NCBI RefSeq assembly: GCF_009720525.1
Contig: NZ_CP043930.1
Span: 3,938,501 to 4,002,500, forward strand
DNA length: 64,000 nucleotides
Direction: 5' to 3'
Origin: Gimesia benthica
GTDB taxonomy: Bacteria; Planctomycetota; Planctomycetia; Planctomycetales; Planctomycetaceae
A program made the position numbers and the translations under genes. Shown piece by piece: positions 7,343 to 56,585 of the stretch. The notes under the pieces were generated by a model. It worked only from the letters and a program-made list of their open reading frames with translations, was not told where the DNA came from and did no database searches. How positions within the stretch are numbered: the stretch's first letter is position 1; each line of letters starts with the position of its first letter.

Positions 7343-8602
7343 TTAAATCGAAACGTGTTCCAGCTCGTGCAGTGAGGCATTCGCTTCGGGATGCCGATAC
7401 GGTTCATAATGCATGATTTGCACATTAAACGGATCGGGCACATGATACAGCACGCCGCGCCAGTCGATGGTGCGGGTCCGCATGGCTGCCAGTAACGCAG
7501 CCGCGAAAATGTAGACCGTGATTCCCAGGTAGCCCAGCGTGCGCAGCGGTTGACGCTGAAAATGTTCGCCGCGAGCTTTGACCGTCTTGTGAACCAGCAG
7601 ACTGATGCGGAAGATCGCCACTGCGACACAGCCATTCGCGAAGAGCAATACTCCCGCGGAGCTCGCTGCTGCCGTCAGATCACCCTGCAGCATAAAGAGC
7701 ACACTGAGAACCAGCAACGCGGTCTGCGCGACAGCCGTCATCAATCCCAGGCCGGCGACGAGCCACCAGTGCGGATGATAATAGCGGGCATTCACCAGCT
7801 GGCGGGTCATGTAGCGGAAACAGGAATCAAAGGAGATCGATTCCCGGTTGACCATCGTCGTGGCAGGCACGAAAGCCACTCTGCGGCCCAGTTGATCTGC
7901 GATGACTTTCAGTCCTGTGTCATCCCAGAGCATGCGGGAGAAGGAATTCGTCAATTGCGGATGAGTGAAGATCTCCCGGCTGAGCGCGATTGAACCTCCC
8001 CAGGGAATGTCCAGAGCCACCATCTGCATCATGGCTGCGGTGTTCCAGGCATGGCGGACCATGGTTCCCGGGTTGGCATGCCGCGGCGCATACCAGCGGA
8101 TGCCCGAAGCGACTCCGACTTCGGGATCCTGCAGAGGAGAGACCAGTTCGCGGAGCCAGCTGCGATGAGGAATGACATCCGCGTCGAGCCAGGCAAGGAC
8201 TTCGACGTCGTGATCCACTTCCCGGATGGCCTGTACCAGCGAGGCGTTCTTCAGGCCGCAGCCCCCATTGGAAACTTCGCGGATGCTGACGTCGCAATGC
8301 GGATGCTCGTGTTCTGCCAGGTATTGGGTCACAAAAGCGAAAGCAGGATCATCAATGTGATCCACGACGATTTTCACCTGGTACGCAGGGTAATCCTGGT
8401 TCAGCAAACCATGCAGGCAGTCGGCCAGAAACGGATCATTGCCCCGCAGAGACAAGACGACCGCAGCCGACGGTGTGTAACTGGAATTAGATTTCTGAGC
8501 GAGGTGTGCCTGGTACAGGCGAGCGACCCGCTGGCCCCAGTAAAGATTGAGCAGGGCAAAGCAAAGCAGACAGAAAACACTGATAGTCGCCAGTTCCAAC
8601 AT
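7343..8602 (-). CDS. Family 2 glycosyltransferase, membrane-bound
   Basis: A 419-residue protein. A hydrophobic N-terminal anchor (residues 3-20) precedes a GT-A domain: SAAVVLSLRGNDPFLADCLHGLL, then the DxD-like LAWLDADVIP, GGSIALSREIF, and the acceptor-side WDDTGLKVIADQLG. A ceramide-glucosyltransferase-like R-Q-L-V-N-A-R-Y-Y follows (compare Q/RxxRW). The C-terminal third holds three or more transmembrane segments. This organisation resembles HpnI/ceramide glucosyltransferase-like GT2 enzymes that transfer sugars to lipid acceptors on the cytoplasmic side of the membrane. A GGGAG ribosome-binding site lies upstream of the ATG. Acceptor and donor are not deducible. Confidence 0.82.
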   Translation of the reverse strand: MLELATISVFCLLCFALLNLYWGQRVARLYQAHLAQKSNSSYTPSAAVVLSLRGNDPFLADCLHGLLNQDYPAYQVKIVVDHIDDPAFAFVTQYLAEHEHPHCDVSIREVSNGGCGLKNASLVQAIREVDHDVEVLAWLDADVIPHRSWLRELVSPLQDPEVGVASGIRWYAPRHANPGTMVRHAWNTAAMMQMVALDIPWGGSIALSREIFTHPQLTNSFSRMLWDDTGLKVIADQLGRRVAFVPATTMVNRESISFDSCFRYMTRQLVNARYYHPHWWLVAGLGLMTAVAQTALLVLSVLFMLQGDLTAAASSAGVLLFANGCVAVAIFRISLLVHKTVKARGEHFQRQPLRTLGYLGITVYIFAAALLAAMRTRTIDWRGVLYHVPDPFNVQIMHYEPYRHPEANASLHELEHVSI

Positions 8603-41167: not shown

Positions 41168-41953
41168 TCACTTGTGTTCCCAAGGCTTTCCTTCGAAAAA
41201 ACTCCTTTCAGAACTCTGGCATTTATGAATACGTGGTTTTCGTTTTGTGAAAACCATATCCCGCAAATCAAAGAATTCATCTTCTGTTTGGGGAGCGAAG
41301 ATAACATCTGGATCATCAAACTGATTATCAAAAGAATTGCAAGCAGAGCAGGCGAGTACCATATTTGAATAATCTTCCAGCCACTCCACAGGGATTCCAA
41401 GCCGTTTTCCAACAGTAGTTGGAATTACATGATCGACTTGGAGTAAAAGCCAATGTTCATAGGAATCGAATAAATCCATCCCACAATAGGCACATGAAGA
41501 CAGCCCCGTAAGACGCCGAAGAGTCAACCCGTAACCACGTCTTGAATTGTCGCCAGATCGTTTCCCCAAAAAACGACGCCCTTGATCGGGGTATTTTAAG
41601 AATGGGAGTTCAACTTCACTTTGTGGTTCAGTTAGAGAAACTACCACTGGATGTTCAGAGATCTTTTCAGATTGATTTGAAGTATCTGGTTTGCAATGCC
41701 CACATGAAGCTAACTCTCCATCGACTGTGCCTGTCGCCCACTCATTGAGTTCATTTACATCGTTTGAGCATACCTTTAGATAGCTCTTGGTTGTCCAGTT
41801 TGATCGTTTGGAAGAAGAAATATGACTACAGGACGAACGATGTAAAAAAAGATTATTGGGAGACGGTGGATTCTGGGCATTTACAACATATCCACTGGGA
41901 TTCGCATTGATCCATCGCAGGTAGCTTTCATCGTCGTTGATTATGAAGATCAT
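41168..41953 (-). CDS. HNH endonuclease
   Basis: A 261-residue protein. The N-terminal part (ESYLRWINANPSGYVVNAQNPP, then LHRSSCSHI) resembles a module found before HNH nucleases in other bacteria. The C-terminal part is an HNH domain with CAYCG, QVDHVIPTTVG and NMVLACSACNSFD. The start at 41951-41953 is chosen because GGGAGAGG, a strong ribosome-binding site, lies six bases upstream; the longer frame to 41992 has none. It lies 57 bases after the EVE-HNH gene and is probably co-transcribed with it. Confidence 0.82.
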   Translation of the reverse strand: MIFIINDDESYLRWINANPSGYVVNAQNPPSPNNLFLHRSSCSHISSSKRSNWTTKSYLKVCSNDVNELNEWATGTVDGELASCGHCKPDTSNQSEKISEHPVVVSLTEPQSEVELPFLKYPDQGRRFLGKRSGDNSRRGYGLTLRRLTGLSSCAYCGMDLFDSYEHWLLLQVDHVIPTTVGKRLGIPVEWLEDYSNMVLACSACNSFDNQFDDPDVIFAPQTEDEFFDLRDMVFTKRKPRIHKCQSSERSFFEGKPWEHK

Positions 41954-42010
41954 GAAATACCTCTCCCAGCCGATGACAGGTAATGTCAACATTATCTGTC
42001 TTGATAAAAT

Positions 42011-43444
42011 TCAATCTTGTATCTGGAACTCATTCCAACGTCGTTCTAAGGCCTGTTGGTTTGGTTCTATTATTTCTGCTTGGGGGGCAAGAAGAGTTTT
42101 CCCATTGAGATTCCCATATTCGGTGTTAGAAATTGACGCTGAGATATGTACTGTCAAAGAATCGGGTTCGATTCCAACGAGATTACGATCAAATAACTTA
42201 TGAATGTCGGCACGAAGCAAAAGTCCGTTTGATGGATCATTTGAGCCAGTATTACAATAGGGGTCAATGTGGGCGGCTTCTAGAGCTTCTATTGCATTGC
42301 ATCCAGTTATTGCACACTTTCCTTCATACATCTGAATAAGCTCATCTCTGAATACTCCCTGCCCAAGTCTCTGCGTGACTACCCGCAATACTCGTTCAAG
42401 CTCAATTTGAGATTCAGGTAAAACTACACTAGAACTGTATTCGCTTCCCCCCTTGGCAGCCTTCTGAATTTCCTGATACTGGTCTTCTGTTACTTTCTTG
42501 GTCCAGCTCAATCCCTTGATTGAAAGGTCTGAAAGTCGAACTGGATTGTTATACAGAGTAGATTTCTCAACTAAATATGTTTTTTGGGCTTTAGGATACG
42601 CTATTAAATCCTCGTCATTTGGTTTTTCCTGACCAACAATTTCGAACTGACCGTAAGCAAGACCGTCTCTGGAGAGAATAATAATGTCTGCATTTTTTGT
42701 ATCTGTATGTCGATAACGACCATTCTCTTTTGAAAATACTTCACCCTTCAGATAGTTCTTGAAATCCTCAGTCGTTTCAAAACCATGTTCGGATTTATCA
42801 GCATTCGGAAATATTCGAATTTCTCTTTCTTGTGGCTTCCTATTCTTGTCATCTGCTGTTTTTAGCTCCTTGACAATCTTGTCGAAGGACTCTTTATCGA
42901 TCTGGAAGAAAGCCTTCTGGATTTCATAAGCAGGAACTGAAAGGCTACTCAGCCACGGAATGCCATTAGCCTGATAATACTGCCATTCTTCGACATCAAT
43001 CCGTTGTGCATATCGCATATCTCCCTGAGCTTCAGGTCGCCGCCATTCGTCGTCATAGTCTTCGTAGAAGACAGGAGCGTCTGTATAATGAATAATGCCT
43101 GAATCGAATTCATGTGAGCTTCTCGCAGTTAGATAATCTGCGACTGTAGAGACATGTGCATCGGATGTAGCAGGTTTTCTTGGCTTACAGATCCTGCCAA
43201 AAGCAAAAAAACCGTTGGGGGTATGTTTCTTCGGAAGATAAGCCACGAACCAGTCGCCCTCATTGATTTCAGGTAATCTTTTCCAGTTTGAAGTAGTGGC
43301 TGCCTTCTGTCTCCCACCTTGAAATTCGTTTCCTGACTCGTCTTTATATTGATACTGCATCATCCATAGATTGTGCTCAATGCCGTAAATCATGCATTCT
43401 TTGGAATCGAAATTGACACACCAGTATTGAGTCATAGTTGCCAC
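42011..43444 (-). CDS. EVE-like domain fused to HNH endonuclease, candidate modification-dependent restriction enzyme
   Basis: A 477-residue protein. The N-terminus (MTQYWCVNFD, LPEINEGDWFVAYLPK, FFAFGRICKPRK) has the pattern of EVE/PUA-like domains, which read modified bases. The C-terminal region has VVTQRLGQGVFRDELIQ, then CAITGCNAIEALEAAHIDPYCN and NGLLLRADIHKLFDRNLVGI, a complete HNH_2 domain (catalytic His in AAHID at about 390). An EVE-like reader joined to an HNH nuclease matches the plan of type IV restriction enzymes that cut DNA with modified cytosines. The middle region is unassigned. Confidence 0.8.
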   Translation of the reverse strand: MATMTQYWCVNFDSKECMIYGIEHNLWMMQYQYKDESGNEFQGGRQKAATTSNWKRLPEINEGDWFVAYLPKKHTPNGFFAFGRICKPRKPATSDAHVSTVADYLTARSSHEFDSGIIHYTDAPVFYEDYDDEWRRPEAQGDMRYAQRIDVEEWQYYQANGIPWLSSLSVPAYEIQKAFFQIDKESFDKIVKELKTADDKNRKPQEREIRIFPNADKSEHGFETTEDFKNYLKGEVFSKENGRYRHTDTKNADIIILSRDGLAYGQFEIVGQEKPNDEDLIAYPKAQKTYLVEKSTLYNNPVRLSDLSIKGLSWTKKVTEDQYQEIQKAAKGGSEYSSSVVLPESQIELERVLRVVTQRLGQGVFRDELIQMYEGKCAITGCNAIEALEAAHIDPYCNTGSNDPSNGLLLRADIHKLFDRNLVGIEPDSLTVHISASISNTEYGNLNGKTLLAPQAEIIEPNQQALERRWNEFQIQD

Positions 43445-43839
43445 TCTATAATTAAAAAACTTGATCAGGAAGCTACTTTCGCCCTTAACTGATACCGCTT
43501 AGATCTTAGACGATGGAATAAACGCAAAGAATTGAATTACTGATCAATTCTTCCATGTGTCAGTGTCCATTTTTACCCGAAGGTTATTGCAGTCTGTAAA
43601 GAGAATTTGCTCCAGCCATGATTACGTCAGTTTTTGCTTGGATATGGGCTGTTGGTCTCTGGTTGCAAATAATCTCATAATTAAAGCTATATTTAATCCC
43701 CAAAGTATCAAGGGGTAGAGATTTGTTCAATGGTTTGAATTCCGTTGATTGAAGGGGAATTGAAATGGATTTTCCCCAGTGGCACTCACCTTGCTTAAAT
43801 GGATAGATACGAACTATTTCATCTAACAAGGAGACTGTT
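43445..43839. other. Promoter region between the HNH pair and the excisionase-like gene
   Basis: About 395 bases. A minus-strand 90-codon frame (43584-43856) overlaps the start of the well-supported plus-strand gene and has no ribosome-binding site. No other structure was recognised; the stretch likely carries divergent promoters. Confidence 0.4.
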
Positions 43840-44532
43840 ATGCCCAATGAACTCAAAAGTGCTTTCCGTTGCCTGCTAAAATTTGTAGTACATGAAGTTG
43901 TCAGTGAATTGCAAAATATAGAATGCCCAACAGATCATAAGAATTCAGACCAAGTCTTGGAGACAGATGACCGCTTATTGTTGCGTTCGAGTGAAATGGC
44001 AGAACGTCTATCAATTTCAGAGAGGCATCTTCACAGGATGACAGTGGAAAGGGGACTCCCCTGTATTCGGATCGGTCAGTCAGTCCGCTTCAGAGTCGAG
44101 GCTGTTAATGAGTGGTTGCTAGAAGCCGAATCAACTGAGGGGTCAAAACAGCAGGTATCCGTAAAAAAGAAAAACATAAAAACCAAGCAACCAAAGATCC
44201 CCCAAAAGTCACAACAAAAGAAAGTGAAAAAACAGACGGCTACAAAACCCAAAATACCAGCGAAAGTATCTAAACAGAAGAAAGTGCCAATGAAGAAGAG
44301 TGGTTCCCAAAGAACCAACCCCGAACCAGAACAGGAGCGAACAAATCCATTCAGGTTACTGTTGAAAGAGATCGGTGTTGATCGGGATGAATTTGGACCA
44401 CTTACAAATGGAGAATTAATGCAGATTGCCGAAGTCGATCTACCGACATTTCATGGTTGGATGTATTTAGGGAAGGGGATGCCAGAAGAAGCATTGGAGA
44501 AGTTGCGGAAACATTTTTCAAAGACAATCTGA
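43840..44532 (+). CDS. Excisionase/MerR-like helix-turn-helix protein with Lys-rich linker
   Basis: A 230-residue protein. Residues ~45-88 (LLLRSSEMAERLSISERHLHRMTVERGLPCIRIGQSVRFRVEAVNEWL) are a typical excisionase-family winged helix-turn-helix. A ~70-residue Lys/Gln/Pro-rich linker follows, then a C-terminal helical domain (VDLPTFHGWMYLGKGMPEEALEKLRKHF) that resembles a second DNA-binding or oligomerisation domain. It might act as the recombination directionality factor for the serine recombinase or as a regulator; it is about 9.8 kb from the recombinase, so the link is tentative. AAGGAG precedes the ATG. Confidence 0.75.
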   Translation: MPNELKSAFRCLLKFVVHEVVSELQNIECPTDHKNSDQVLETDDRLLLRSSEMAERLSISERHLHRMTVERGLPCIRIGQSVRFRVEAVNEWLLEAESTEGSKQQVSVKKKNIKTKQPKIPQKSQQKKVKKQTATKPKIPAKVSKQKKVPMKKSGSQRTNPEPEQERTNPFRLLLKEIGVDRDEFGPLTNGELMQIAEVDLPTFHGWMYLGKGMPEEALEKLRKHFSKTI

Positions 44533-44581
44533 GCTGGATAAGATAATCAATTTGATTTGAATAGAAAATAAGTGAGATTAA

Positions 44582-45211
44582 ATGGAAGTATCAGTCGCTG
44601 TGATCTCAGATGTAATCTGCCCTTGGTGCTATATCGGCAAGCGGCGACTTGAGAAAGCAATTGCTGCCTTGGGAGATAAACATGATGTTCAAGTTCGATG
44701 GCATCCGTTCCAGCTCAACCCCCAAATGCCGAAAGAGGGGATCAGCCGAAAGGAATATCGCTCCAGAAAGTTTGGTAGCTGGGAACGGTCAATGGAACTG
44801 GATGCTAAAGTGGTCGCTGTTGGTGAAGCTGAAGGAATTCAATTCGCCTTTGACAAAATTGGTCGAACACCAAACACTGTTGATGCCCACCGACTCATCT
44901 GTCTTGCCGATCAGCATGGCTGTCAGGATGCCGTCGTTGAGGCACTATTCCGAGCTTATTTCACTGAAGGCAGGGATATTGGTAAGCGTGAGGCACTGAT
45001 TGATGTGGGTTCTGAAACAGGTTTGGATCGACAGGCTGCGGAATCCATGTTGGACAGTGATGAAGGACTGGATGTGATTTCAAATGCCAGAGAAATGTCG
45101 AATCAGTATGGAGTTGATGGAGTTCCTTTCTTTATCATCAACCAGAAATTGACTTTGGCTGGGGCACAGAATTCAGAGGTTTTTGTTGAGGTATTTCAGA
45201 ATGCCCGATAA
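44582..45211 (+). CDS. DsbA-family / FrnE-like 2-hydroxychromene-2-carboxylate isomerase-type oxidoreductase
   Basis: A 209-residue thioredoxin-fold protein. It begins VAVISDVICPWCYIGKRRLEKA, with a C-P-W-C redox pair, and ends GVDGVPFFIINQKLTLAGAQNSEVF, including the cis-Pro. This is the FrnE-like subgroup of the DsbA family. No signal peptide is present, so it is cytoplasmic. It follows the excisionase-like gene by 49 bases and does not obviously belong to the defence operon. Reaction unknown. Confidence 0.88.
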   Translation: MEVSVAVISDVICPWCYIGKRRLEKAIAALGDKHDVQVRWHPFQLNPQMPKEGISRKEYRSRKFGSWERSMELDAKVVAVGEAEGIQFAFDKIGRTPNTVDAHRLICLADQHGCQDAVVEALFRAYFTEGRDIGKREALIDVGSETGLDRQAAESMLDSDEGLDVISNAREMSNQYGVDGVPFFIINQKLTLAGAQNSEVFVEVFQNAR

Positions 45212-45323
45212 CAACTCCAGACCGACATAACTGCTTTTCGTTTGCAGCAAGAATAAATGGAGAAGCCTGACAGCAGAGAAGATGCCGATCATTAGAATGA
45301 ATATTTCCAATTACGCTAGGAAA

Positions 45324-46184
45324 TCAAGTTCCATTATTCTTAATCGATCTTGAAACAAAATCTCCCTGCAATCTAGTCCCGATAGCTTCCCCCATCATGT
45401 TCCAGTAAAGCCGTTGAGGTGTTTTATTTGTTTTTATTGAAGTGCCTGAGACGAAATGGGCTTGATTGTAGCCTGTGTCGTAACGATCCTGATAAGCCTC
45501 ATTATGCATCAATGGAACAATACTTCTCACGAATTTAACAATGTATTCAACGGACATACTTCTTTTAATTGAATAGTCTTTTCGATATTTTTTGATAGCC
45601 GTTCCTAAACAATTCACGATTATATCAGCGTCACTATCTCTTTCGGTACAGAGTCGATGATAAAGCCCTAATTGAGCACACAATTGACGGGGAATCGATT
45701 TGGGAAACCATTCTGGTTTCTCTTTCACTTTGGACACTTCAACTAAAAATTTTTTGCCAGTATCTCTGATATCTTGTCTAAGATATTTTCTATTACCCTT
45801 TAAATCTCCTAACAGGTATCCCAAGACACCAAAACAAGTCTGCACACCATAAATCAACCATAAATCACTTTCTGGATTGTGATCTTTTAATCTCCTGAAG
45901 AAATTTGGGGAGAATTTAAATTTGTCATTCGTTCTTTTTGCATTGTAAACATTAAATCTACAGCTACTTTCTGCTTCAAGTAACGTGGGTAGCTGCTGTG
46001 TTAGCACCTCTATTTCCAGATTCTGAATCAGCAACCAATTAAGGGTCGCCATAAGTGGTTTAGCAACAAGATTCGGAAATACTCCATGTCGCAAATCAAA
46101 TGGATGTAACTGGCTATCAAGCCCTTCGCAGATCGTTCCTACTTTCATAGGTAGAGATTCAGCGACAAGATAAAGTGTTTTCAT
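45324..46184 (-). CDS. Hypothetical protein, coupled partner of the nuclease-like gene
   Basis: A 286-residue, mostly helical protein beginning MKTLYLVAESLPMKVGTICEG. It has no recognised family and no catalytic motif. Its start codon overlaps the stop of the upstream nuclease-like gene at 46184, and this translational coupling suggests the two proteins act together. It is the last gene of the long minus-strand block that begins at 59145. Confidence 0.65.
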   Translation of the reverse strand: MKTLYLVAESLPMKVGTICEGLDSQLHPFDLRHGVFPNLVAKPLMATLNWLLIQNLEIEVLTQQLPTLLEAESSCRFNVYNAKRTNDKFKFSPNFFRRLKDHNPESDLWLIYGVQTCFGVLGYLLGDLKGNRKYLRQDIRDTGKKFLVEVSKVKEKPEWFPKSIPRQLCAQLGLYHRLCTERDSDADIIVNCLGTAIKKYRKDYSIKRSMSVEYIVKFVRSIVPLMHNEAYQDRYDTGYNQAHFVSGTSIKTNKTPQRLYWNMMGEAIGTRLQGDFVSRSIKNNGT

Positions 46185-46990
46185 TAATCAAGTTCCCAGC
46201 TTACAGATAACGATCGATCTTGACTGTTGATAGCCACTTCACAAAACTCAATATCTGACAGTAAGTCTTTCTTAAATGGACGACTTGGATTGGGATGTAA
46301 TATACTAAACACGTTTGGTGGCTCGACTCCAAGACCGCAAAGTAATAGACCTGAGATAGAACTACGGGCAAATCCTATTTCAGTAGTTTTCTCTGGTCTG
46401 AGAAATACAGCAGAATATAGGCTGGTACTTTGATAAACTTCTCCAGCATTTCCTCCTGTATTTTCATCCATTTGCCAAGCAATTCTACCCTCGCCTGTTA
46501 ATAGCTCTTCTACATGATCCTTATTCATGCAAATTGAAGAAGCCCAAATATGAAACGTACCAATTGCAAGAATTGTTGGGTGATTCATACCACTACATTG
46601 TATTGCCTTCCCCTTGCAAGCTGACCATACCGAGTTATTGAGAGACGAATAGTTTCTTGCTCTCTGTTCAGGGATTAACGGAAGATTGGTTTCTTCAATC
46701 ACTTTCTGTATGGAAATACATGTCACTTCAACATAAAAAACATGACCATCCTTAGAACATCTGAAATCTGGTTGTTTGCCTGATTCATTTAAATTTTCGT
46801 TAGGAGTAACGGTTACTCCCTGAAGCTGGAGTAACCGTCGGACTCTTGCTTCACACATTGCAGCTTCGTCATTATTTTTTGTAAATAATATATCCCAGTT
46901 TGCTAAATGTTGGGGATCAAATTGAGACAACCACTCTCGATGCTCACCAATTAATTTACGCCAATGTGGATTACTGAGGGGGAACTGCAT
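46184..46990 (-). CDS. PD-(D/E)xK-like nuclease, putative
   Basis: A 268-residue protein. Residues 74-90 read P-D-F-R-C-S-K-D-G-H-V-F-Y-V-E-V-T, matching the P-D...E-x-K core of restriction-endonuclease-like folds, with Thr in place of the final Lys. An upstream Glu in CEARVRRLL (about residue 47) may complete the active site. The altered last residue leaves activity uncertain. It overlaps the next gene by one base (stop/start at 46184-46186), so the two are coupled. It begins 56 bases after the HNH gene. Confidence 0.6.
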   Translation of the reverse strand: MQFPLSNPHWRKLIGEHREWLSQFDPQHLANWDILFTKNNDEAAMCEARVRRLLQLQGVTVTPNENLNESGKQPDFRCSKDGHVFYVEVTCISIQKVIEETNLPLIPEQRARNYSSLNNSVWSACKGKAIQCSGMNHPTILAIGTFHIWASSICMNKDHVEELLTGEGRIAWQMDENTGGNAGEVYQSTSLYSAVFLRPEKTTEIGFARSSISGLLLCGLGVEPPNVFSILHPNPSRPFKKDLLSDIEFCEVAINSQDRSLSVSWELD

Positions 46991-47046
46991 TAAGACAAAG
47001 CCTCAAGGTGTTGATAAACCGTCGGAGATACCATGAAATTGTTAAT

Positions 47047-47826
47047 TTACATAAACTCAACCGCTGTATGATCTATTTTAGCGACTTGCCAACGATGAGT
47101 TTCGTTATCTCCAACAGTCTTTACGGAAAACCATACAGAGTCAGCCTGCTTAAATATTTCAATATCATGAAGACCATAATCAACATCCAAAGTCACCCAA
47201 CGTTTTGAAGGTAGCTCAATGTCTTGCACGTTAAATGGATAATCATCCGAGTAGATTACATCTGGACCGTGATGGAATTCTATCAATGGCGAATGCAGTA
47301 ATTCATCATGTGGCAGATCGTTTCTAAGTCGTATCTTACATGAATATAGAACGTTCCCTTTTTTCCACCCATCAATAAAAATGACCGTATCAGATGGATC
47401 GTTGCCTCGATTTTTCCACATTTCCCAACCATCAACTGCAAATCTAATAGAATGGTCATCTGCGAGAATGGTAGGAAAATAATTCTGGTGCAATTCGGAA
47501 AAAGCAAACTGTTCTGCTACCAGTTTCCAATCCAAGAGAATTTCTTTGGAAAATTGAGATGGATCGCTGTCAATCAATTTGGCACATGTCTGACATAGCC
47601 AAATACCGTTTTGGGCTGAAGAACGGTATTCTTTACCGCAAAAAGCATCATATCGTGGACCGCCTACTGAAGCGGCAGTAATATGGGCTGCCACACCCAC
47701 ATTCAAGGATTTGTCCTCTGTTGAATGTGGTCCACTCGTCATCTTACGGCAAGATGGATTGGAGCAATGATATCCAACCCTCTTCGCAAGTACGTCTTTT
47801 ATTCGCTGACTAAAGTTGTCACGCAT
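47047..47826 (-). CDS. HNH endonuclease effector coupled to a DAC-like gene
   Basis: A 259-residue protein. The N-terminal ~90 residues are an HNH nuclease module: C-S-N-P-S-C (residues 21-26), NVGVAAHITAASVGGPRYD (His48 predicted to be catalytic) and NGIWLCQTCAKLID. HNH domains of this subtype are common in bacterial defence proteins. The C-terminal ~160 residues are beta-rich and unassigned, perhaps a sensing or regulatory module. Its ATG lies one base after the stop of the DAC-like gene (TAA-A-ATG), so the two are translationally coupled. Confidence 0.82.
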   Translation of the reverse strand: MRDNFSQRIKDVLAKRVGYHCSNPSCRKMTSGPHSTEDKSLNVGVAAHITAASVGGPRYDAFCGKEYRSSAQNGIWLCQTCAKLIDSDPSQFSKEILLDWKLVAEQFAFSELHQNYFPTILADDHSIRFAVDGWEMWKNRGNDPSDTVIFIDGWKKGNVLYSCKIRLRNDLPHDELLHSPLIEFHHGPDVIYSDDYPFNVQDIELPSKRWVTLDVDYGLHDIEIFKQADSVWFSVKTVGDNETHRWQVAKIDHTAVEFM

Positions 47827-47827
47827 T

Positions 47828-49036
47828 TTAAAGAAACTCTAATTTAGCATCGCATTTTTCATCACCATTATTACTTTCAAAATGAAGCGTTATTTCTCCA
47901 TCAGAACTAACTTTTATTGGTCTCCCTCCCCAATGATAAGCTGATAGAGCAGCTGTAGATCTTGCACCACTCTGCCCGTTAGCATTCGGATGAGATTCTA
48001 TAATGGCTCCAAAAGCGAGTATTTGACGATTATCAAAAATAACTGCTCCATCGATACTAGCGAGCTCAGTAAGCAATCGTTTATTTCCAAGTGCTTTTGT
48101 CGATTCTCCTATTCCAATGTCTCTAACACTGTCAGCAATAAATGAATTTCCTTGCTCTGATCCAGACGAAAGAATACATTCTTTGTTGACAATCTTTTCA
48201 ATCACTTTCGATTCTGGATCATGTACCAATAATGCTCCATGTCGCTTGAAACTTAGATCAAAAGCAATTTCATAGAGAGTAGCTCCTGCATTATAGCTTT
48301 TAACACATTTTGTAATTGTATTCTTGAATGTGTTTTGGTCGTATATTGTCCATATACCTTTGCGTCTTGAAGCAATCATCCCCCAATAATTCATGAAAAT
48401 CCAATCGCCAGACGATGTCAAATGCACAGAATACTCTTTGTGTTTTAGGACGCTGTGAAAAGGATTTAAGAATTCTGGTAAATACTTATAGGACTGAGAA
48501 TTCTTTATTTCATCCCATCGAATCTCTTCATAACCAATAATTTTCATACATGGGTCTACTCGAAAGTACGTAAATGGTGAAGTACCAAGTTGGTCCAAGA
48601 GTTTTTGGTGTCTATCTAGGTCGATACGAATACCATTTTCATTCTGATCTACATCAATGATCATATTCAATGTCACACGCTGGTTTTCGTATGTCCTTCG
48701 TGATAACGCATGAAGATAGAATAATATATCATCCCATTTAACTTCAGAAGAATTATACCCCAGCCACTCAAGCACAAACTGTTCCTGAATAAACTCCCGA
48801 ACAAGTAGATTTTTTGCATGTTTTGTCGATTTCACATAAGATGTAATCTTGCGATTCATTGATCCCAAGAGTTGATTCAAATTTGGTGTATTGTATATCA
48901 GATTATAAAAAGGGTATTCTTCCCCATCGATGCTTAAAGAAAATGAAAATGGACCACAGTCAGCTTGATACCAATTAGGAACAAGATTTATACAGTCGCT
49001 TGCTATGTTTCTGTATTTATGCTGATCAGAAGTCAT
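47828..49036 (-). CDS. Diadenylate-cyclase-like (DAC/DisA_N-related) sensor-type protein
   Basis: A 402-residue protein. The C-terminal half resembles a DAC domain: HGALLVHDPES at about 266, IDGAVIFDNRQILAFGAII at about 329, GARSTAALSAY at ~357-367 and IKVSSDGEITLHF at about 375. In active DACs the motifs are D-G-A and R-H-R; here D-G-A is kept but the R-H-R region reads A-R-S-T, so synthesis of c-di-AMP is doubtful. Catalytically altered DAC relatives (DACN-type domains) have been described as predicted sensors in conflict systems. The N-terminal ~190 residues are unassigned. The coupling to an HNH gene is the main functional clue. Confidence 0.65.
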   Translation of the reverse strand: MTSDQHKYRNIASDCINLVPNWYQADCGPFSFSLSIDGEEYPFYNLIYNTPNLNQLLGSMNRKITSYVKSTKHAKNLLVREFIQEQFVLEWLGYNSSEVKWDDILFYLHALSRRTYENQRVTLNMIIDVDQNENGIRIDLDRHQKLLDQLGTSPFTYFRVDPCMKIIGYEEIRWDEIKNSQSYKYLPEFLNPFHSVLKHKEYSVHLTSSGDWIFMNYWGMIASRRKGIWTIYDQNTFKNTITKCVKSYNAGATLYEIAFDLSFKRHGALLVHDPESKVIEKIVNKECILSSGSEQGNSFIADSVRDIGIGESTKALGNKRLLTELASIDGAVIFDNRQILAFGAIIESHPNANGQSGARSTAALSAYHWGGRPIKVSSDGEITLHFESNNGDEKCDAKLEFL

Positions 49037-49100
49037 TTATTTTAACTCACAATCCAGTAAACAAGAACAAATATAGTTATCGCTGACAGGAAACACCTCC

Positions 49101-49796
49101 TCACAAACTCATTCCAGCACCATTCACTCGCAGCCACTGTTTCCGCTCCAGATAATCTGGCAAAATCTTATCAACCTCATTCCAAAATGCTTCCGTATGA
49201 TTGGCATGAATCAAGTGTGCTAGCTCATGAACCACGATGTAATCAATGATCGTGAGTGGTGCCATAATGCATTTCCAGTGGAAATTCAGCATGCCTTCTG
49301 TGGTGCAGGATGCCCAACGATGTTGGAGTTCCTGAACTTTGATGCCTTTGGGGGTGACTCCCATCTGGGAAGCGAAATATTCCACCCGCTCAATGATTTT
49401 CTGGAGCGACTTTTCACGATAGAACTCTTTGAATACTTCGTGAGTATCTTCCTGTCGATCTTCCAAGCCAGAACGCAAACAGAGATAACCCTGCTTGAGC
49501 ATCAATGGCTGCAACTGATCTTCCACGATTTTCAATCGATAAGAACGCCCTAAATACAGGAAGCCTTCACCATTCACGAATTCCCGCTCGACTCGTGTGG
49601 CGTTCAGATCACACCACTCAGCTAGATTTTTGTAGATCCAGACCAGCTTGTTTTCAATCAGTGATTCGACTTCTGCATCAGACAACTTCTTCGGAGCAAG
49701 TACGGATACTTCACCATCCCGCTCAATATAAATACTGGCGGTTTTCCGATCACTGCGGGAAACTGAATATGAAACATCTTTGTATTGTTTTTTCAT
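49101..49796 (-). CDS. DUF45/YgjP-like metalloprotease, accessory of type I restriction locus
   Basis: A 231-residue protein with the zinc-protease motif HELAHLIHANHTEAFW (H-E-x-x-H plus a downstream His) and the family trait LQHRWASCTTEGMLNFHWKC. These are the marks of the DUF45/WLM-related family, often found next to type I restriction genes. It overlaps hsdR by four bases (ATGA at 49793-49796), so it is co-translated with it. Its target is unknown; a role in controlling the restriction enzyme has been proposed for the family, but this is inference. Confidence 0.88.
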   Translation of the reverse strand: MKKQYKDVSYSVSRSDRKTASIYIERDGEVSVLAPKKLSDAEVESLIENKLVWIYKNLAEWCDLNATRVEREFVNGEGFLYLGRSYRLKIVEDQLQPLMLKQGYLCLRSGLEDRQEDTHEVFKEFYREKSLQKIIERVEYFASQMGVTPKGIKVQELQHRWASCTTEGMLNFHWKCIMAPLTIIDYIVVHELAHLIHANHTEAFWNEVDKILPDYLERKQWLRVNGAGMSL

Positions 49797-52700
49797 GACA
49801 CAATATCCCGATGACGAACTTTTGCCAGTGATGTAATCTCCGTCACGATCTGATCAGTATTTTCTATAATCGGATCAATGCCCGTAAACAACATCAAATC
49901 AGAAAGCCTTCCTTTCAGTTTTTCGACTTCATATGCATTATTCCAAAAATTGATGATATTGATGGTTTGCTGGAACTCTTCTATCACATCACCAATGAGC
50001 TGTTTTAACTGCTGGTCATATTCTGCTGGTATTGTATTTTCAAATGCCAGTTGTGCGATCAAGTCATAGAAGGGGGCTTCTGTGGCACTGATCCCTTCGA
50101 TATCGTCTTTCCGTCCCTTTTCTGCTTCGTCCCGAATAACTGACAGGTCAAAACAGAGTTGATCCCAATCATCCTTATGTTTTTGAATCAACGTCTCCAG
50201 CTTCTCACTGAGCTTGGTATAGAATGCGGGATCTTCCTCAAATCGAATTTTGCAGTGCTTACGAATGGCATGTTCCATTTCGCTGGCTTTTGCCTTGGGT
50301 GATGTGTTCTTTTCCAGCTCTTCGATGAAGTTAGAAGAAAACAGTTCGACTGGTTTGATCTTGGGATTGATACCAAGACTGATGAGATGTTCGTTGATCA
50401 GTTTTCGAACCTTTTCACCAGCTCCAGCAATATTAAGGGAATCATCTTTATAACGCTGTTTCACTTTAGCCAGCAAATAACCAAATCGTTTGACAGGGAT
50501 CTTGTATTCATTTGCGGCAGAGTGGGGCAGCACGATATCCATACTTTGCAGGAACTTTTTCAGGTAGACTTCAAAGGTCGCCCTGAGCTTCACATCCTTC
50601 AGTTTTTCAATGGCCAATTCCAATATATCGAAATTCTTCTGGGTATCATTTATGGACTGCCTGACGAATGGCTCGATCTCATCAATGCCATTATCTGTAA
50701 ACAGATGAATCAGCCGTTGGTAACGGCTTTCCAAAATAGGAATTTCTGTTGTGATGTTCTTCAGTGAGTTTTCAACATCATCTCGATCATCGCCAGAATA
50801 GATGGATAACGCTTCCTTGAGATGGTTTGCTAACCCCACGTAATCAACAATATAACCCCGATTCTTCCCCTTACGAACTCGATTCACTCGGGCAATCGTT
50901 TGGAGCAGATTATGTTCCTTGACTATTTTGTCGATGTACATGACCTGTTCGACTGGTGCGTCAAATCCTGTCAGCAGCATATCGCAGACAATCAGGAAAC
51001 TGACTCCAGTAAGTTCTTTGGATGGATCGTCATAATTGAAATCCCGTTTGAAATTCTCAACAGCCTTGATTTCTCTGGAATATTTACGGGCATGAGTGAT
51101 AACGGCTTTTTCATTAGTGCCATCTGAAGAAACGACCACTGCTGATTTCAGGAAAGCAATTTTATTGATCAACTCCTGATCTGGCTCAGTTTCTGCCTGA
51201 CGCTTTTCCAGTTCCTCAGTAAGTGCCTTATCGATGTAGGTCTTGTAGTGAATTGCCGCCATCTTAGAATTACAGACAACCTGAGCTTTGAATCCATTAG
51301 GCAGGATGTTGTCGATATAGTGCTTGACCAAATCCTTGGAAATGGCCTCAATTCGCTTTTCTGCTTCAAAGATATCGCCAGTGGCACCATACTTCTTTTT
51401 GATGGCTAGTATTTCTTCATCAGTTCGATGTGCAAACAGATCTTCGAATTTTGTATCAAATTCATGCTTTTCATTCAGGGCAGTGTCAGCGGTTTTCCCT
51501 TCATATAGAATCTGGACGGTCGCACCATCATCCACGGCGTCCTGTAAACGGTATTTGTCGATATAGCCGCCAAACCGCTCCCACGTCTTCTTAGTATGCC
51601 GATCCGTGATCAAAGGTGTTCCCGTAAAAGCCAGCCGTGTGGCATTGGGAAGGGCAGAGAATAGATTGTCACCAATGTCGCCCCCCTGACTACGGTGGGC
51701 TTCATCGATCATACAGACAATACGGTCGGAATCATTCACCACTTCCATCGTGGCAAATTCTTGTACGGTCTCCTGTCCCCCTAATGCATCTTCCAGATAG
51801 CCAGCGAGTTCTTCTTTATGCTCCTGAAATTTATGGATCATCACCATGTTCAGATTCGAACTGGAAGTCGCTAGTTTCGTCTTTAAATCTTCGCTGCTTT
51901 TTATGACGGTGACCTTTTCACCAGTCAGGTTTGCTGTTTCGCTTAGCTGCTCTTCCAGACTGGTTCGGTCATTGATCATGCAGATTTTATAATCTTTCAG
52001 ATCATCACAGGAGCGGATCTTTCGGATAGCGAACACCATCGTGAGAGATTTCCCTGAGCCTTGTGTGTGCCAGACAACCCCAGATCGTTCCATCGCCGTC
52101 GAGCCGTCCCGCATCCGTTCGATGATTTTCAGCATGGCTCTGTATTGCTGGTAGCGGCAGACGACTTTGATCAGTTTCTTTTCGGACACCATGAAAATGA
52201 TGCAGTTGCGGATGACATCCAGCAGGATTTCTGGAGCCAACAATCCCTGAATCAATACTTCCTGCTGCCGTTCTTTTCCTAACGGGGGAGTGTAATCTCG
52301 ATATTTTTTGGGATAGATGTCTTTCCAGTTATAAAAATAATCTTCTGAGGAAGTGATCGTTCCCAGTTTGGCTTCATCACCATCTGAGGCAATTAGCAGT
52401 TGATTGGTGTAGAACAGTCGTGGTTCGCCCTCTTTGAGACCTGCTTCATGTGTCTCTTCCCGCTGGTCACTGTAGCGATGAAGTTGCTTGATGGCTTCAT
52501 GCATTGGATTGGCAGTAAAGGCATTGGCGTCCTTACATTCAATCACAACCAATGGCAGTCCGTTGACAAACAGAACGATATCAGGGCGAATATGTCCTTT
52601 CCCTTTACTGGGGGTATCAACACGGAACTGATTGATTGCCAGAAAGTGATTTCGTAGGGGATGGTCAAAATCGATCAATTTGACTTCAGGGTTTTGTTCT

Positions 52701-53044
52701 CCAGTCAGCTCGTTCTCATCGACCGTCGGCTTCCATTCACCATCCCTGAGTAAGAAATGGAGCAAATTCTGATTCTTCTCCAGCAGGTTATTTCCAGAAG
52801 GATTAAGCACTTCTTCATACAGGTCATCCAGTTGCTGATCCGTCAGCCATTCCAGTCCCTCACTGGTTGTGTTAAGGGCTTTGACGCTCTGTTTGAAGAT
52901 CTCTCCTAATGTGACTTCCCGAAAACTGGTACGGTGGCTGAGTGTCGGATCAGTGGGGATCGAATTACCTTGATCGATTATCTGCCAGCCTAAAGCAACC
53001 AGTTGATCCAAAAATGGTTTTTCAACGTAGGAGTATTCAGACAT
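49793..53044 (-). CDS. hsdR: Type I restriction enzyme, R subunit
   Basis: A 1083-residue protein of normal HsdR size. The N-terminal nuclease carries HIRPDIVLFVNGLPLVVIECK (PD...ExK), followed by a helicase with Walker A HTQGSGKSLTMVFAIRKI, the DEAH-type box CMIDEAHRSQGGD, TRLAFTGTPLI, the later motif SFLIVCDMLLTGFDAPVEQVMYID and IARVNRVRKGKNRGYIVDY. The C-terminal ~250 residues bind the methylase core. HsdR translocates and cuts unmethylated DNA with HsdM/HsdS. It overlaps the upstream DUF429-like gene by eight bases and the downstream metalloprotease gene by four, so the three are translationally linked. Confidence 0.95.
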   Translation of the reverse strand: MSEYSYVEKPFLDQLVALGWQIIDQGNSIPTDPTLSHRTSFREVTLGEIFKQSVKALNTTSEGLEWLTDQQLDDLYEEVLNPSGNNLLEKNQNLLHFLLRDGEWKPTVDENELTGEQNPEVKLIDFDHPLRNHFLAINQFRVDTPSKGKGHIRPDIVLFVNGLPLVVIECKDANAFTANPMHEAIKQLHRYSDQREETHEAGLKEGEPRLFYTNQLLIASDGDEAKLGTITSSEDYFYNWKDIYPKKYRDYTPPLGKERQQEVLIQGLLAPEILLDVIRNCIIFMVSEKKLIKVVCRYQQYRAMLKIIERMRDGSTAMERSGVVWHTQGSGKSLTMVFAIRKIRSCDDLKDYKICMINDRTSLEEQLSETANLTGEKVTVIKSSEDLKTKLATSSSNLNMVMIHKFQEHKEELAGYLEDALGGQETVQEFATMEVVNDSDRIVCMIDEAHRSQGGDIGDNLFSALPNATRLAFTGTPLITDRHTKKTWERFGGYIDKYRLQDAVDDGATVQILYEGKTADTALNEKHEFDTKFEDLFAHRTDEEILAIKKKYGATGDIFEAEKRIEAISKDLVKHYIDNILPNGFKAQVVCNSKMAAIHYKTYIDKALTEELEKRQAETEPDQELINKIAFLKSAVVVSSDGTNEKAVITHARKYSREIKAVENFKRDFNYDDPSKELTGVSFLIVCDMLLTGFDAPVEQVMYIDKIVKEHNLLQTIARVNRVRKGKNRGYIVDYVGLANHLKEALSIYSGDDRDDVENSLKNITTEIPILESRYQRLIHLFTDNGIDEIEPFVRQSINDTQKNFDILELAIEKLKDVKLRATFEVYLKKFLQSMDIVLPHSAANEYKIPVKRFGYLLAKVKQRYKDDSLNIAGAGEKVRKLINEHLISLGINPKIKPVELFSSNFIEELEKNTSPKAKASEMEHAIRKHCKIRFEEDPAFYTKLSEKLETLIQKHKDDWDQLCFDLSVIRDEAEKGRKDDIEGISATEAPFYDLIAQLAFENTIPAEYDQQLKQLIGDVIEEFQQTINIINFWNNAYEVEKLKGRLSDLMLFTGIDPIIENTDQIVTEITSLAKVRHRDIVS

Positions 53045-54281
53045 TAATTGAATTCCTACTTTTAGACTTCACTTTAATTCTATTACAGTCTGGCATCCAG
53101 ATTTGCCCACCATCTCCTTCGGAGCCAAATGGTTTCGTTAAACCACATCGATGAAGAGCGGCAACAAGTGCCGCAGCCGCAGCATCTACTGAATCATGAT
53201 CTTTTAATAAATCACAGTTTAAATCAGGGATAAATTTCTGTAACAAATCAATTCTAGCCATTCTCCCTTCTGGCTTCGTTTTCTTAGGCGGAGTCCCTTT
53301 ATTTCCGAGTAAATGCCAAAGAAATGTGAACACACCATGAGGATGTGTTTCAATTTTTTTAATTTTGGGGTATTCAGAAAATAAGATAATAGAACGAGCA
53401 ATCCACCTACTGGCACCTTCGAATTTCATAACTGTATTTTGAGTAGTCCAAAATAATCCAACACCTTCTCTGAACAATCTTCTTTCACATTCACGAATCC
53501 CACTGCATGCATTTTTATCCCATCCTTTAGAAATATTTGAGAGTAATCGTGGGCCATTGGTGTCACAGGGGCCATCTATACATACAAGACTAGACTTAAC
53601 CGATTTTACGTGGTCCCACAAATCATCATTCTTATGGTGATGAAACAGTGGATTCTCAGGAAGTGTGAATGTCCCATTAGAAATTCGAATAGAAAAACTG
53701 GGCATTTTCTTCTTGCCGATTGTCATTTTGGAAGCCCAACTCGCCGCTGTCGGATCTACACCTGTAACCACATCATTTATTTCTTTTGGTACAGAGAATC
53801 GAAGTTCAAGACTTTCATCAGATGAAGATGATGGAGTAATTGAATGATGAGGCTCATTTTTCTTGCTAGGATGCTCCAAGACTTTTTTCACAGTTGCTTG
53901 ACCTTGAAGAAATGATTCTTGTGAGTCATAAGACAGTATTTCTGGATCTAGTGGGGATTCCTCATAGATTTCTATTGTCTCAAGTTGGCAAAACATACGG
54001 TTGGTGAGCATCCCATAAATAGGCAAGACATTAGAAGGAGTATTTTGCCGCTTAGGCTTATCAGCAACCGTAGCAGTACCATGAAGAATGAGCCTTCCAG
54101 TTTCTGACGTACAGAGACCCACTTTTTGTCCTTTAGTTGAACCTGACATTGGAGGAGTTTTATGATTATTTAATAAAAGAAATGCCTCTTTATCATCCTC
54201 TACCAATCCTGAAAGGAACGAAATTTCTTCACGTGGATCTGGATAGTCTTCATTCTCTGTAAATCGATAAATCCAATCCAT
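53037..54281 (-). CDS. DUF429-like RNase H-fold protein within the type I restriction operon
   Basis: A 414-residue protein. The segments VVTGVDPTAA (Asp at 176), LVCIDGPCDTNGPR (Asp at 236), ECERRLFREGVGLFWTT, ETHPHGVFTFLW and HDSVDAAAAALVAAL (acidic residues near 363-366) follow the order of DUF429 predicted nucleases, which have an RNase H-like fold. The first ~150 residues form an unassigned N-terminal extension. Its stop overlaps the hsdR start by eight bases. Such proteins are not standard parts of type I systems, so its role here is unknown. Confidence 0.72.
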   Translation of the reverse strand: MDWIYRFTENEDYPDPREEISFLSGLVEDDKEAFLLLNNHKTPPMSGSTKGQKVGLCTSETGRLILHGTATVADKPKRQNTPSNVLPIYGMLTNRMFCQLETIEIYEESPLDPEILSYDSQESFLQGQATVKKVLEHPSKKNEPHHSITPSSSSDESLELRFSVPKEINDVVTGVDPTAASWASKMTIGKKKMPSFSIRISNGTFTLPENPLFHHHKNDDLWDHVKSVKSSLVCIDGPCDTNGPRLLSNISKGWDKNACSGIRECERRLFREGVGLFWTTQNTVMKFEGASRWIARSIILFSEYPKIKKIETHPHGVFTFLWHLLGNKGTPPKKTKPEGRMARIDLLQKFIPDLNCDLLKDHDSVDAAAAALVAALHRCGLTKPFGSEGDGGQIWMPDCNRIKVKSKSRNSINV

Positions 54282-54391
54282 TTTGGTTCCTTATCTAACA
54301 TAACAATGTCAGTAAATTAGCTGTTCAGTTCTAGTGTTATATAGCGAGACCTTTTGTCCTGCTCACAAATCGGATTACCAGCACAGGAGTC

Positions 54392-55270
54392 TCACTCATC
54401 ATCCGCCTCTTTGACAATGGATGCTTCTTGGATTTCTTTTAATGTCGTTCCCTCTTTTGTTTTCCATGCCGTGCGACCATTTGTAGGTCCTCCAGTGATC
54501 ACGGCTCCTGCTTTGGAAGGGGCAGAGAAAACCTGATTCTGAGTAAAGACATAATGTTGTCCTTGGTAGACGACGATCCCCTGATCAATTAAATCCTTGC
54601 GAATGGAAAGATAATGCTGGTTCAAAGAGGGAGTCGCTTCTACCACCATTTGAGATCCCTGCATTACAACAAAACCTTTTGCATCTTCGTAGCCCTTTGC
54701 CGCCACTCCTTTTGCCTTGATATAAAGGAGATCTCTTGGTTTCACGCTGGTTTCTGTTTTTTCAAAAACGCTCAGTCCCAGTAGTGGGAAGACATTGAGA
54801 ATATCAAGCAGGAAGCTTTCCACATCCGCAATTTCTGCTTCTGATAATGAAGGCGGGAGAGACGTTTGGGTATTATCTAATTTGCATTGCTTGGCATCTC
54901 CAGCCAGTTCCAATAATCGGGATTCCAAGTGCTTCACATGGGCTTTATTCAAGCTGCTGTCTTTTGTGACGAAAAACACAGCCCAGTCCCAAAAGTCTTT
55001 CTTACTATAGTGGCTGTCCAGTCGTGCTTTAACGGGATCACCTTCGCCAATGTAGACTGTGGGTAGGCTGCTCTCTTCCGATGCACCGACCAGAATGTAA
55101 ACTCCTGTTTTTAGGAATTCATCTCGATTCGCTGCCTGTTTGTAATTCGTGCGTCGAAAGACAATGCCCACACCAGTCCAGTTCGACTTTTCCACAACAC
55201 GTAAGCCGTCTGGATCACCATCCGGGACGAATATTTTAATCGAAAATGGGCGTTGGTGTTGTTCAAGCAT
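54392..55270 (-). CDS. GIY-YIG nuclease family protein with DUF4357-like C-terminus
   Basis: A 292-residue protein. The GIY-YIG core is visible as TGVYILVGASEE and TVYIGEGDPVKARLDSHYSKKDFWDWAVFF (residues 56-100). The last ~60 residues (VFSAPSKAGAVITGGPTNGRTAWKTKEG) match the DUF4357 pattern. Proteins of this type occur repeatedly in type I restriction loci. The gene overlaps the hsdS stop by eight bases (55263-55270), implying coupling. Whether it cuts DNA or regulates the complex is not known; the catalytic Arg/Glu of GIY-YIG should be checked. Confidence 0.85.
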   Translation of the reverse strand: MLEQHQRPFSIKIFVPDGDPDGLRVVEKSNWTGVGIVFRRTNYKQAANRDEFLKTGVYILVGASEESSLPTVYIGEGDPVKARLDSHYSKKDFWDWAVFFVTKDSSLNKAHVKHLESRLLELAGDAKQCKLDNTQTSLPPSLSEAEIADVESFLLDILNVFPLLGLSVFEKTETSVKPRDLLYIKAKGVAAKGYEDAKGFVVMQGSQMVVEATPSLNQHYLSIRKDLIDQGIVVYQGQHYVFTQNQVFSAPSKAGAVITGGPTNGRTAWKTKEGTTLKEIQEASIVKEADDE

Positions 55271-56585
55271 TGGTTAATTCTTCCTCAACTTCATCTACTT
55301 TGACTCGGACTTTTCCTGTGAGCAGGTCTTGCATGAGACCAGATTTCAATGTTCGAAGCTTAGTAGCGTTAGCCTCTTCGAGCGAAAGTTGTTTTTGAAA
55401 TACCTCAACTCTATGACCAATTTCTTTCTGCTCCTCCAATGATGGAAAAGCAATGGGAATCCTTCTTACATCACCCAGATTAATGCCTTGGACTGCAACC
55501 CCAAGAGTGTGAACTGCAATAAACCTCTGTGGCTCAGGCATCTCCAAATAGCCACGAATGAATCGTGCATCTCCGCATACGACTCCAATTCGAGCAGTAT
55601 CTTGAGTAATATTTGCTCCATCGAGTGAAGCAGGGACAAATGCCATCCGACCAACCGTCCCACGAATCGTGAATAGTAAGTCTCCGGCAGTTGTCTTAGA
55701 CCGTTTGTATTGACTGTCAATTTCCGGTGAAGTCAAAAGTAAATCATCCAACTGAACCTCGCCATTCTTGATATCCTTGACTTTTATGACAGGTATTCCC
55801 CCCTGATGGCCATAACCGGGCATAAGTATTCCATAAACAATCGGACGAGATTGAGAAATTGTGTCATTCAGTATCCCTGCCTCCCACTCCTTCGGAATCC
55901 ATCCCAATGGCGATTCCTTATACAGATGGGGGACTTCTTCATATGAAGGGCGGAGTTTGCCGTCTTTGTCCACACCTCTTGTGAACAGATCATGCATCAT
56001 CCCCTGTTTGATCGCTTTGTATTTTTCGATCAACGCCTCAGTTTTCTCAATCAGATTATCAACCGTCGTAAGAATACGGGCAATCTTTTTTTGTTGGGGA
56101 AGGGGAGGTAGTGATATCGTAAACTCACGCAGGTCTGCTTGGAAAAGATGGGGGACACCGAGTCCTGCCTTCTTTTCAGCGATAAGTTGCTGGAACTCAT
56201 CACCATTAACTAAGTGATAGAGAAACTCTGGGTAAAGCCCTCCCTTTGTTCGCACGACCGCTGTGGAACCGTTGACCGTTGTTGGACGTGGCAAGCGGCG
56301 AACAAAGTTGCTAGTGCCGAGTGTCGAACCATCTTTAACGATCAGAACATCGTCCAGTCGAAGCTGAATTTCAGGGGATTCGTCGTATCGCCATTTTGAG
56401 ATGTAGTTGACGTTAAAGAAGTCAATTTGATGCCCCTTAAGGTTGGGAGTTGCAAGAAAAATATAACCATCGTCAACATATTCATCTGCTGTCAATCCCT
56501 TCCAACCCAAACGAGCCTTGACTGTGGTGTAATCTCCAAGGCGTACCTTATCCCAGCATTTCGGTGAAACAGAGGATTCACTCAT
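55263..56585 (-). CDS. hsdS: Type I restriction enzyme, specificity (S) subunit
   Basis: A 440-residue protein with two target-recognition domains, each followed by a conserved helical spacer. TRD1 is followed by [48 protein letters not shown], and TRD2 by [51 protein letters not shown]. Length and the two-fold layout are standard. HsdS determines the bipartite DNA sequence recognised by the HsdM/HsdR complex. Both TRDs are present and uninterrupted, so the system could be functional. It overlaps hsdM by eight bases and the GIY-YIG gene by eight. Confidence 0.93.

Follow-up and report, generated by a model that had tools for sequence, protein, structure and literature searches.

A DAC-like protein with an altered active site beside an HNH-type gene in a defence island of Gimesia benthica: a putative single-chain double DAC

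Results

A DAC-like gene and an HNH-type gene one base apart

The window, that is, the whole stretch of 64,000 nucleotides that was analysed (G000:C1:3938501-4002500), lies within the 8.03-Mb single-contig genome of Gimesia benthica. On its minus strand, a gene for a DAC-like protein, P0001, is followed by a gene for an HNH-type protein, P0002. Both ORFs were confirmed at the following coordinates, given here with their parts and neighbours.

56578-59145, minus strand: HsdM, upstream of HsdR, named by eye
55263-56585, minus strand: HsdS, upstream of HsdR, named by eye
49793..53044, minus strand: HsdR of the type I restriction operon (profile TIGR00348, 6e-140)
49101..49796, minus strand: YgjP-like metallopeptidase (PF01863, 7.9e-61), 64-base gap upstream of P0001
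47828..49036, minus strand: P0001, DAC-like protein, putative single-chain double DAC, 402 aa
48329..49036, minus strand: N-terminal half of P0001, residues 1-236, predicted to fold like a degenerate DAC; its RTYEN/RTYEG motif contains E117
47831..48328, minus strand: C-terminal half of P0001, residues 237-402, DAC domain, with D329-G330-A331 and G357-A358-R359-S360-T361
47047..47826, minus strand: P0002, HNH-type protein, 259 aa, starting 1 base past the P0001 stop
47503..47826, minus strand: HNH module of P0002, Cap5/SAVED-effector-type, residues 1-108 (PADLOC and PDB matches)
47050..47493, minus strand: orphan C-terminal region of P0002, residues 112-259
46184..46990, minus strand: 268-aa gene, PD-(D/E)XK-like by eye, 56-base gap after P0002
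45324..46184, minus strand: 286-aa gene without family match, 1-base overlap with the 268-aa gene

The junction of the two genes reads CTT TAA A ATG CGT, i.e., the TAA-A-ATG arrangement that an earlier note, made from the sequence alone, had pointed out. This one-base spacing suggests translational coupling, though a single instance is no test of it. Ahead of P0001, the genes running in the same direction encode HsdM, HsdS, a PDC-S14/DUF4357 protein, a DUF429 protein, HsdR and the YgjP-like peptidase. The pair thus sits, as the same note had it, in a defence island after a type I restriction operon, with HsdR recognised by profile and HsdM and HsdS by eye. On the downstream side, the 268-aa gene gave weak matches only (PADLOC PD-T7-1, E 0.02; Pfam DUF5784, E 0.032), and the 286-aa gene had no family match among the Pfam, PADLOC and NCBIfam/TIGR profiles. 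A consensus scan, which is a weak method, found no promoter-like or terminator-like site on the minus strand between the genes of 45200-49900. Incidentally, two more HNH genes lie at 41168-43444 of the window, one with a PtuB-like HNH part (PADLOC, E 6e-5) and one matching HNH_2 (Pfam, 6.9e-15).

The C-terminal half of P0001 has a DAC fold

The Pfam DAC profile (PF02457) matched residues 261-366 of P0001 with an E value of 7.8e-6 and 25.9 bits, slightly missing the curated cut-off of 27, and a six-frame search of the genome with the same profile gave 27.6 bits at the P0001 site, above that cut-off. The AlphaFold2 model of P0001, built from the 26-row family alignment, had a pLDDT of 90.5 and a pTM of 0.89. 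When this model was submitted to Foldseek, 69 PDB matches were obtained at E<=0.001, and all of the 50 matches listed were DAC structures. The best had an E value of 2.7e-6 and a probability of 1.00, and the target TM ranged from 0.48 to 0.63 among the matches listed. One of them, 2fb5, is titled hypothetical membrane spanning protein, yet it carries GTRHRAA. In addition, the profile of the C-terminal half aligned with 13 planctomycete core DACs with an hhalign probability of 97.3 (E 2.3e-11). From profile and model comparison, we consider the DAC fold of the C-terminal half settled. The DAC-like domain proposed in the earlier note is therefore upheld by the PF02457 match and by the predicted structure, and the Foldseek matches listed assigned this half to no other fold.

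The active-site motif is altered throughout the family

Our scans returned 28 relatives of P0001, 27 in genome contigs and one in viral contigs. Alignment A3 comprises P0001 and 25 relatives (26 rows), and leaves out L079 and L081, from which the family ORF was not recovered, and L076, whose C-terminal end is off frame; of the contigs named below, L065 belongs to genome G284 and L077 to G224. When the family profile was aligned with CdaA, DGAV fell on DGAV and GARTTAA on GTRHRAA. In P0001 itself, the DGA motif occupies residues 329-331 and GARST residues 357-361, and the motif facing GTRHRAA is GARSTAA, in which R359 is kept while the His is replaced by S360 and the second Arg by T361. P0001 thus carries the DGA of diadenylate cyclases and lacks their RHR. 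The earlier note was right that D-G-A is kept and RHR altered, but it had the whole of RHR replaced, whereas the first Arg is retained.

This pattern, with the first Arg present and the His and second Arg lost, is common to all 26 aligned family members. Eight residues, E117, G267, D329, G330, A331, G357, R359 and A362, are invariant in the 26 rows, and so are G370, K375, S377, D379 and G380. We had considered motif decay in a dead P0001 gene; this was ruled out, because the alteration is family-wide and the reading frame is open.

We also searched 27 loci by pattern and found 18 proteins with DGA and GxR, nine loci giving none. Fifteen of the 18 were of the planctomycete core type, GLG[AS]RH followed by a variable letter; two had GARYNSA and one had the family motif. 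In the core-type DACs, found at G000:C1:52663-53037 (L001) and in L028-L030, L033, L034, L039-L044 and L047-L049, the residue after GLG[AS]RH is W, Q, Y, K, A or L. These core DACs keep RH and do not conserve the second Arg, and RHR is therefore not rigid. At the one DS-2-like locus that we found (see below), the motifs are DGT and GSRYNSA. In Mycobacterium tuberculosis DacA, changing RHR to AAA abolished ATP binding and activity (PMC3328451), so P0001 may bind no ATP; that test changed all three residues at once.

The N-terminal half may be a second, degenerate DAC fold

Residues 1-236 of P0001 were folded alone, with the N-terminal halves of the same 25 relatives, and the AlphaFold2 model had a pLDDT of 93.4. 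The first five PDB matches in Foldseek were, in order, DacA, CdaM, CdaA, CdaM and CdaA, with probabilities of 0.98-1.00, E values of 0.0085-0.018 (none <=0.001), 132-151 aligned columns and target TM values of 0.41-0.50. Ranks 6 and 7 were DisA, at probabilities of 0.69 and 0.57, and every non-DAC structure among the 50 matches listed stayed at or below 0.15. We also looked for a viral counterpart of this fold, and this was rejected: the viral structure library gave no match at E<=0.001, the best listed one having a probability of 0.63 over 40 columns.

Profile comparison gave weak support. The N-terminal half scored 17.6 against the C-terminal half, more than every one of 60 controls with shuffled columns (mean 10.9, sd 2.2, highest 16.3), and 15.7 against the core DACs, within the range of shuffles (max 20.0). 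The hhalign probability for the two halves was 0.9 or lower, and all hhalign probabilities of the N-terminal half stayed below 1. By eye, the register of the halves is coherent, LTSSGDWIFM of the N-terminal half falling on VSSDGEITLH of the C-terminal half. The invariant E117, within RTYE[NG], has no nameable counterpart in the canonical DAC site. Since the N-terminal half alone finds DAC structures first, P0001 may be a single-chain double DAC with one degenerate half, a reading drawn from structure comparison in which we place moderate confidence. The DAC-like look of this half is new with respect to the earlier note. In the open-licence literature searched, we found neither the double DAC nor the motif pattern of the family, and no paper on tandem DACs.

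P0002 carries a defence-type HNH module and an orphan C-terminal region

Residues 1-108 of P0002 matched PADLOC PDC-M68A (3.3e-22), a SAVED-HNH model of PADLOC matched up to residue 106 (7.5e-13), and the HNH part matched Cap5-type chains in the PDB. These matches agree with the defence-type HNH subtype that had been recognised from the sequence. The designation as a nuclease calls for caution: the core His and Asn are kept (H48, N73), but the third His position is A82. Ala or Ser also occupies this position in L012, L013, L014, L016 and L019, and His is found in most of the more distant rows. C21, C26, C78 and C81 are presumed zinc ligands, and zinc binding and catalysis would be the roles of this core; a zinc finger in the Cap5 HNH domain has been mentioned (PMC8568899).

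No sensor domain was recognised in P0002. In particular, Pfam gave no SAVED domain at E values up to 5, and the SAVED-HNH models align only to the HNH part. Among 392 genomes of the phylum, the own genome aside, matches to P0002 stop by residue 137, and a tblastn search of plasmids with the C-terminal region (E up to 5) gave just 3 records, at E 3-4. The HNH module itself was matched in 263 plasmid records and in 20 of the 392 phylum genomes (own genome included), and the relatives that we read carry other C-termini, by eye TIR-like, P-loop or beta-rich. Relatives of P0002 in viral contigs were sought in 19 candidate stretches, of which none was confirmed. A second copy of the HNH module lies in the same genome at G000:C1:1732388-1732753 (L016), 54% identical over residues 1-118, and it too is near a YgjP-like peptidase gene, by eye.

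Adjacency of the two genes was seen in this genome only

The earlier note had presented the two genes as a tight pair. No P0002-like ORF was found beside P0001 relatives at any of the 28 loci (phmmer, E up to 10, ORFs >=60 aa); flanks extended to 6 kb at most (5 kb at the viral locus), with several contigs shorter, and ORFs were picked longest first, so that the set includes spurious ones and may lack genes that are short or overlap others. The claim of a conserved pair therefore fails by the note's own yardstick, adjacency in other genomes, and the HNH protein was rejected as an obligate partner of P0001. Nine whole-genome stretches likewise gave no P0002-like gene at E 1e-3; a P0001-like ORF was recovered from seven of these stretches, and two of the nine coincide with loci already counted among the 28. 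In G020, G230 and G284 (another genus), the relatives share one locus, with lactate permease and sulfatase neighbours, and no HNH gene accompanies them there. In seven genomes with P0001 relatives, the HNH module was matched once, on a different contig. In C. fimetarium (L067), an HNH gene of another kind (HNH_4) follows the family member at a distance of about 380 bases. Pairing is thus seen only in the genome studied here, and the coupling of DAC and HNH proteins would be local and is unproven.

We also rejected a large plasmid or phage reservoir of the P0001 family: with P0001 as query, we retrieved one plasmid and one phage record, and with other members the same phage record and one or two plasmid records.

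As a separate observation, at L050 (G020:C1:2057000-2072000; 4906-7885) and L004 (2740-3015), a lactate permease gene has a relative of the DAC-like gene at its 3' end. A repeat of about 270 bases from the end of the permease gene stands beyond this relative, as would be expected of an insertion that duplicated the end of its target.

Family members recur near diverse defence systems

Several family members lie in or next to defence systems. The member in L063 adjoins DrmD and DrmMI (DISARM), that in L077 comes after PglZ and BrxL (BREX), and that in L080 stands between HsdS and HsdR (type I RM). In L066, the member and a type II methyltransferase gene overlap, and the same run includes an LmuB-like ATPase. 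The member in L067 is downstream of an AAA + DUF4435 gene that we read as PARIS AriAB, and that in L083 is near a methyltransferase gene that we read as type III; PADLOC left the AriAB and type III methyltransferase model matches unassigned, and these two assignments are ours. On the Agrobacterium plasmid NZ_AP023285.1, a member that shares 30% identity with L071 (E 3e-23) lies in convergent orientation to a type II CBASS (Mov34, ThiF, DncV-like CD-NTase, patatin). The contig L088 also has terminase and portal genes; its relative, of 45% identity, is followed by a HEPN/RES gene, after a gap of 100 or 145 bases by the likelier starts. These two genes (L088, 4983-7542) form a candidate phage-borne two-gene immune cassette. 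In L064, L065, L070, L072 and L084-L087, relatives stand among housekeeping-looking genes, as judged partly by eye.

We then compared the two nearest ORFs of >=110 aa on each side, for 26 of the 28 loci and with the window not included. At E 1e-20, 84 PADLOC models were matched in 93 neighbours of the 26 family loci, vs a single model, QatD, matched once among the 52 neighbours at 13 core-DAC loci. Counted per locus, defence genes were found at 6 or more of the 26 loci of the family and at 1 of the 13 with core DACs (Fisher p 0.39), and counted per neighbour protein, in about 10 of 93 and 1 of 52 (p 0.10); neither difference was significant, and the figures of 6 loci and about 10 proteins are our assignment from the 25 of 84 models that were listed and may be low. 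Enrichment of defence genes around the family is suggestive, not proven.

Discussion

P0001 is probably an atypical, nucleotide-binding, defence-associated DAC whose neighbouring effector can be exchanged. More specifically, and tentatively, at somewhat less than even confidence, we favour the reading that it is an atypical nucleotide-binding double DAC that serves a neighbouring effector, here P0002, as a switch or as the source of its signal. The P0001 family is a broad group of atypical DAC-like proteins, of which many lie within defence islands or next to them, and each chain would combine a degenerate N-terminal DAC fold with a C-terminal DAC keeping the Asp of DGA and the first Arg of RHR. 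In ordinary DACs, two chains meet face to face, with one ATP each; two unlike DAC folds in one chain might create an asymmetric nucleotide site. Most likely, infection would bring about an altered nucleotide or DNA state to be sensed at this site, and P0001 would signal to the effector by contact, or via a dinucleotide other than c-di-AMP. The closely spaced P0002 would be the likeliest effector here, the family standing elsewhere alone or beside other systems. The fold of the C-terminal half, the state of its motif, the sharing of this pattern across the family and the gene neighbourhoods are what the data show; nucleotide binding, the ligand, any catalysis, the signal and the link with P0002 are what we infer in this scheme. 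A bolder version would make the double DAC the signalling core of a defence class parallel to CBASS, in which a non-canonical dinucleotide is read or made at an interface of one intact and one degenerate half and the effectors are exchangeable (HNH here, a RES toxin in the phage); we think this unlikely.

Other explanations were weighed. We doubt that P0001 is an active altered cyclase that makes c-di-AMP or a hybrid dinucleotide sensed by the C-terminal part of P0002, in a CBASS-like arrangement with a DAC replacing the CD-NTase. The invariance of DGA and the first Arg in 26 of 26 rows would suit such an enzyme, as would the lack of the second Arg in the core planctomycete DACs (15 of 18 pattern-found proteins) and the kinship of the HNH module of P0002 with CBASS effectors, but the RHR to AAA change kills DacA activity (PMC3328451), and P0002 has no known sensor domain, misses the third His and is not a conserved partner. 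DS-2-like proteins are also without the His and second Arg (GSRYNSA, GARYNSA), and DS-2 DAC mutants lost defence (PMC13092281); yet the GARYNSA proteins are DS-2-like by motif and length only, and the search for the E. coli DS-2 sequence gave no match. It also seems improbable that P0001 serves as an accessory or regulator of the adjoining DNA-modification system, here the type I RM, with the HNH gene as the next cargo of the island. Members do lie in or at the end of such operons (L080, L077 after BrxL, L066, and here after the RM operon), and the simple scan saw no promoter-like site upstream of P0001. Other members, however, have no such system nearby, one of them stands next to a RES gene in a phage, and here the YgjP gene and 64 bases separate P0001 from HsdR.

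We give little credence to a chance juxtaposition within the defence island, in which P0002 would act alone or with the downstream genes at 46184-46990 and 45324-46184. The one-base spacing, with the translational coupling that it suggests, argues against it as far as a single instance can, and the pair being seen once, the wide shuffling of the HNH module onto other C-termini in the relatives read, and the downstream genes continuing in the same direction argue for it.

What makes the family of interest is that DACs are known as makers of c-di-AMP, one of which (in DS-2) was shown to be needed for phage defence. The family keeps the DAC fold and half of the active-site signature, and may double the domain within a chain. 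Such a family, recurring beside DISARM, BREX, RM, PARIS and CBASS, would bring a second enzyme fold into nucleotide-based immunity, and the role of DACs in phage defence would become testable with few mutants (D329, R359, E117).

Comparison with known systems

With PDC-M68A, P0002 shares residues 1-108 on profile positions 1-108 and a similar length (253 vs 259), but the match ends at residue 108. The locus resembles CBASS with Cap5 (SAVED-HNH) in that a Cap5-type HNH module has a nucleotide-related protein as its neighbour, and differs from it in having no CD-NTase among the scanned neighbours and no SAVED match, in that the P0001-P0002 pair is not conserved, and in the replaced third HNH His of P0002. 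CdaA and DacA (PF02457) have in common with P0001 the C-terminal fold, DGA and the first Arg of RHR; P0001 departs from them by the replacement of the His and second Arg and by a probable second DAC-like fold in its chain.

Galperin (2023, J. Bacteriol.), cited in PMC13092281, is said to have described DAC genes near CBASS and phage-resistance genes. An association of CBASS with DACs is already in print, and PMC13092281 describes DS-2 as a CBASS with an added DAC. The DS-2 DAC model (NF053872) matched 13 of the 26 family members, with a best E value of 2.7e-5. P0001 itself reached E 0.073 and 11.4 bits, vs a curated cut-off of 630, and its membership in DS-2 was rejected on this ground. DS-2 further differs in its phospholipase and CD-NTase partners, neither of which was found near P0001 among the ten window proteins scanned (41168-55270).

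A DS-2-like locus was present in 1 of 398 genomes, with patatin-like and CD-NTase-like genes (both by eye) and split DAC genes. We also searched for an E. coli copy of DS-2-like DNA, with no match. Two further DAC proteins of the same phylum, with DGA and GARYNSA (L126, 4998-6497; L127, 6012-7541), are DS-2-like by motif and length, and by eye no CBASS genes were seen in 8.6 and 12.2 kb, respectively.

Despite these differences, the DS-2 DAC resembles P0001 in having a long N-terminal part and a C-terminal DAC. RHR is altered in P0001 and in the DS-2-like proteins that we read, and a YEG motif in the N-terminal part of two DS-2-like proteins aligns weakly with RTYEN. In the DefensePredictor study (PMC13092281), mutating either of two residues of the DS-2 DAC abolished phage defence; that DACs can belong to defence is therefore already in print. 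The nearest relative of P0001 with a tested defence role is this DS-2/CBASS DAC.
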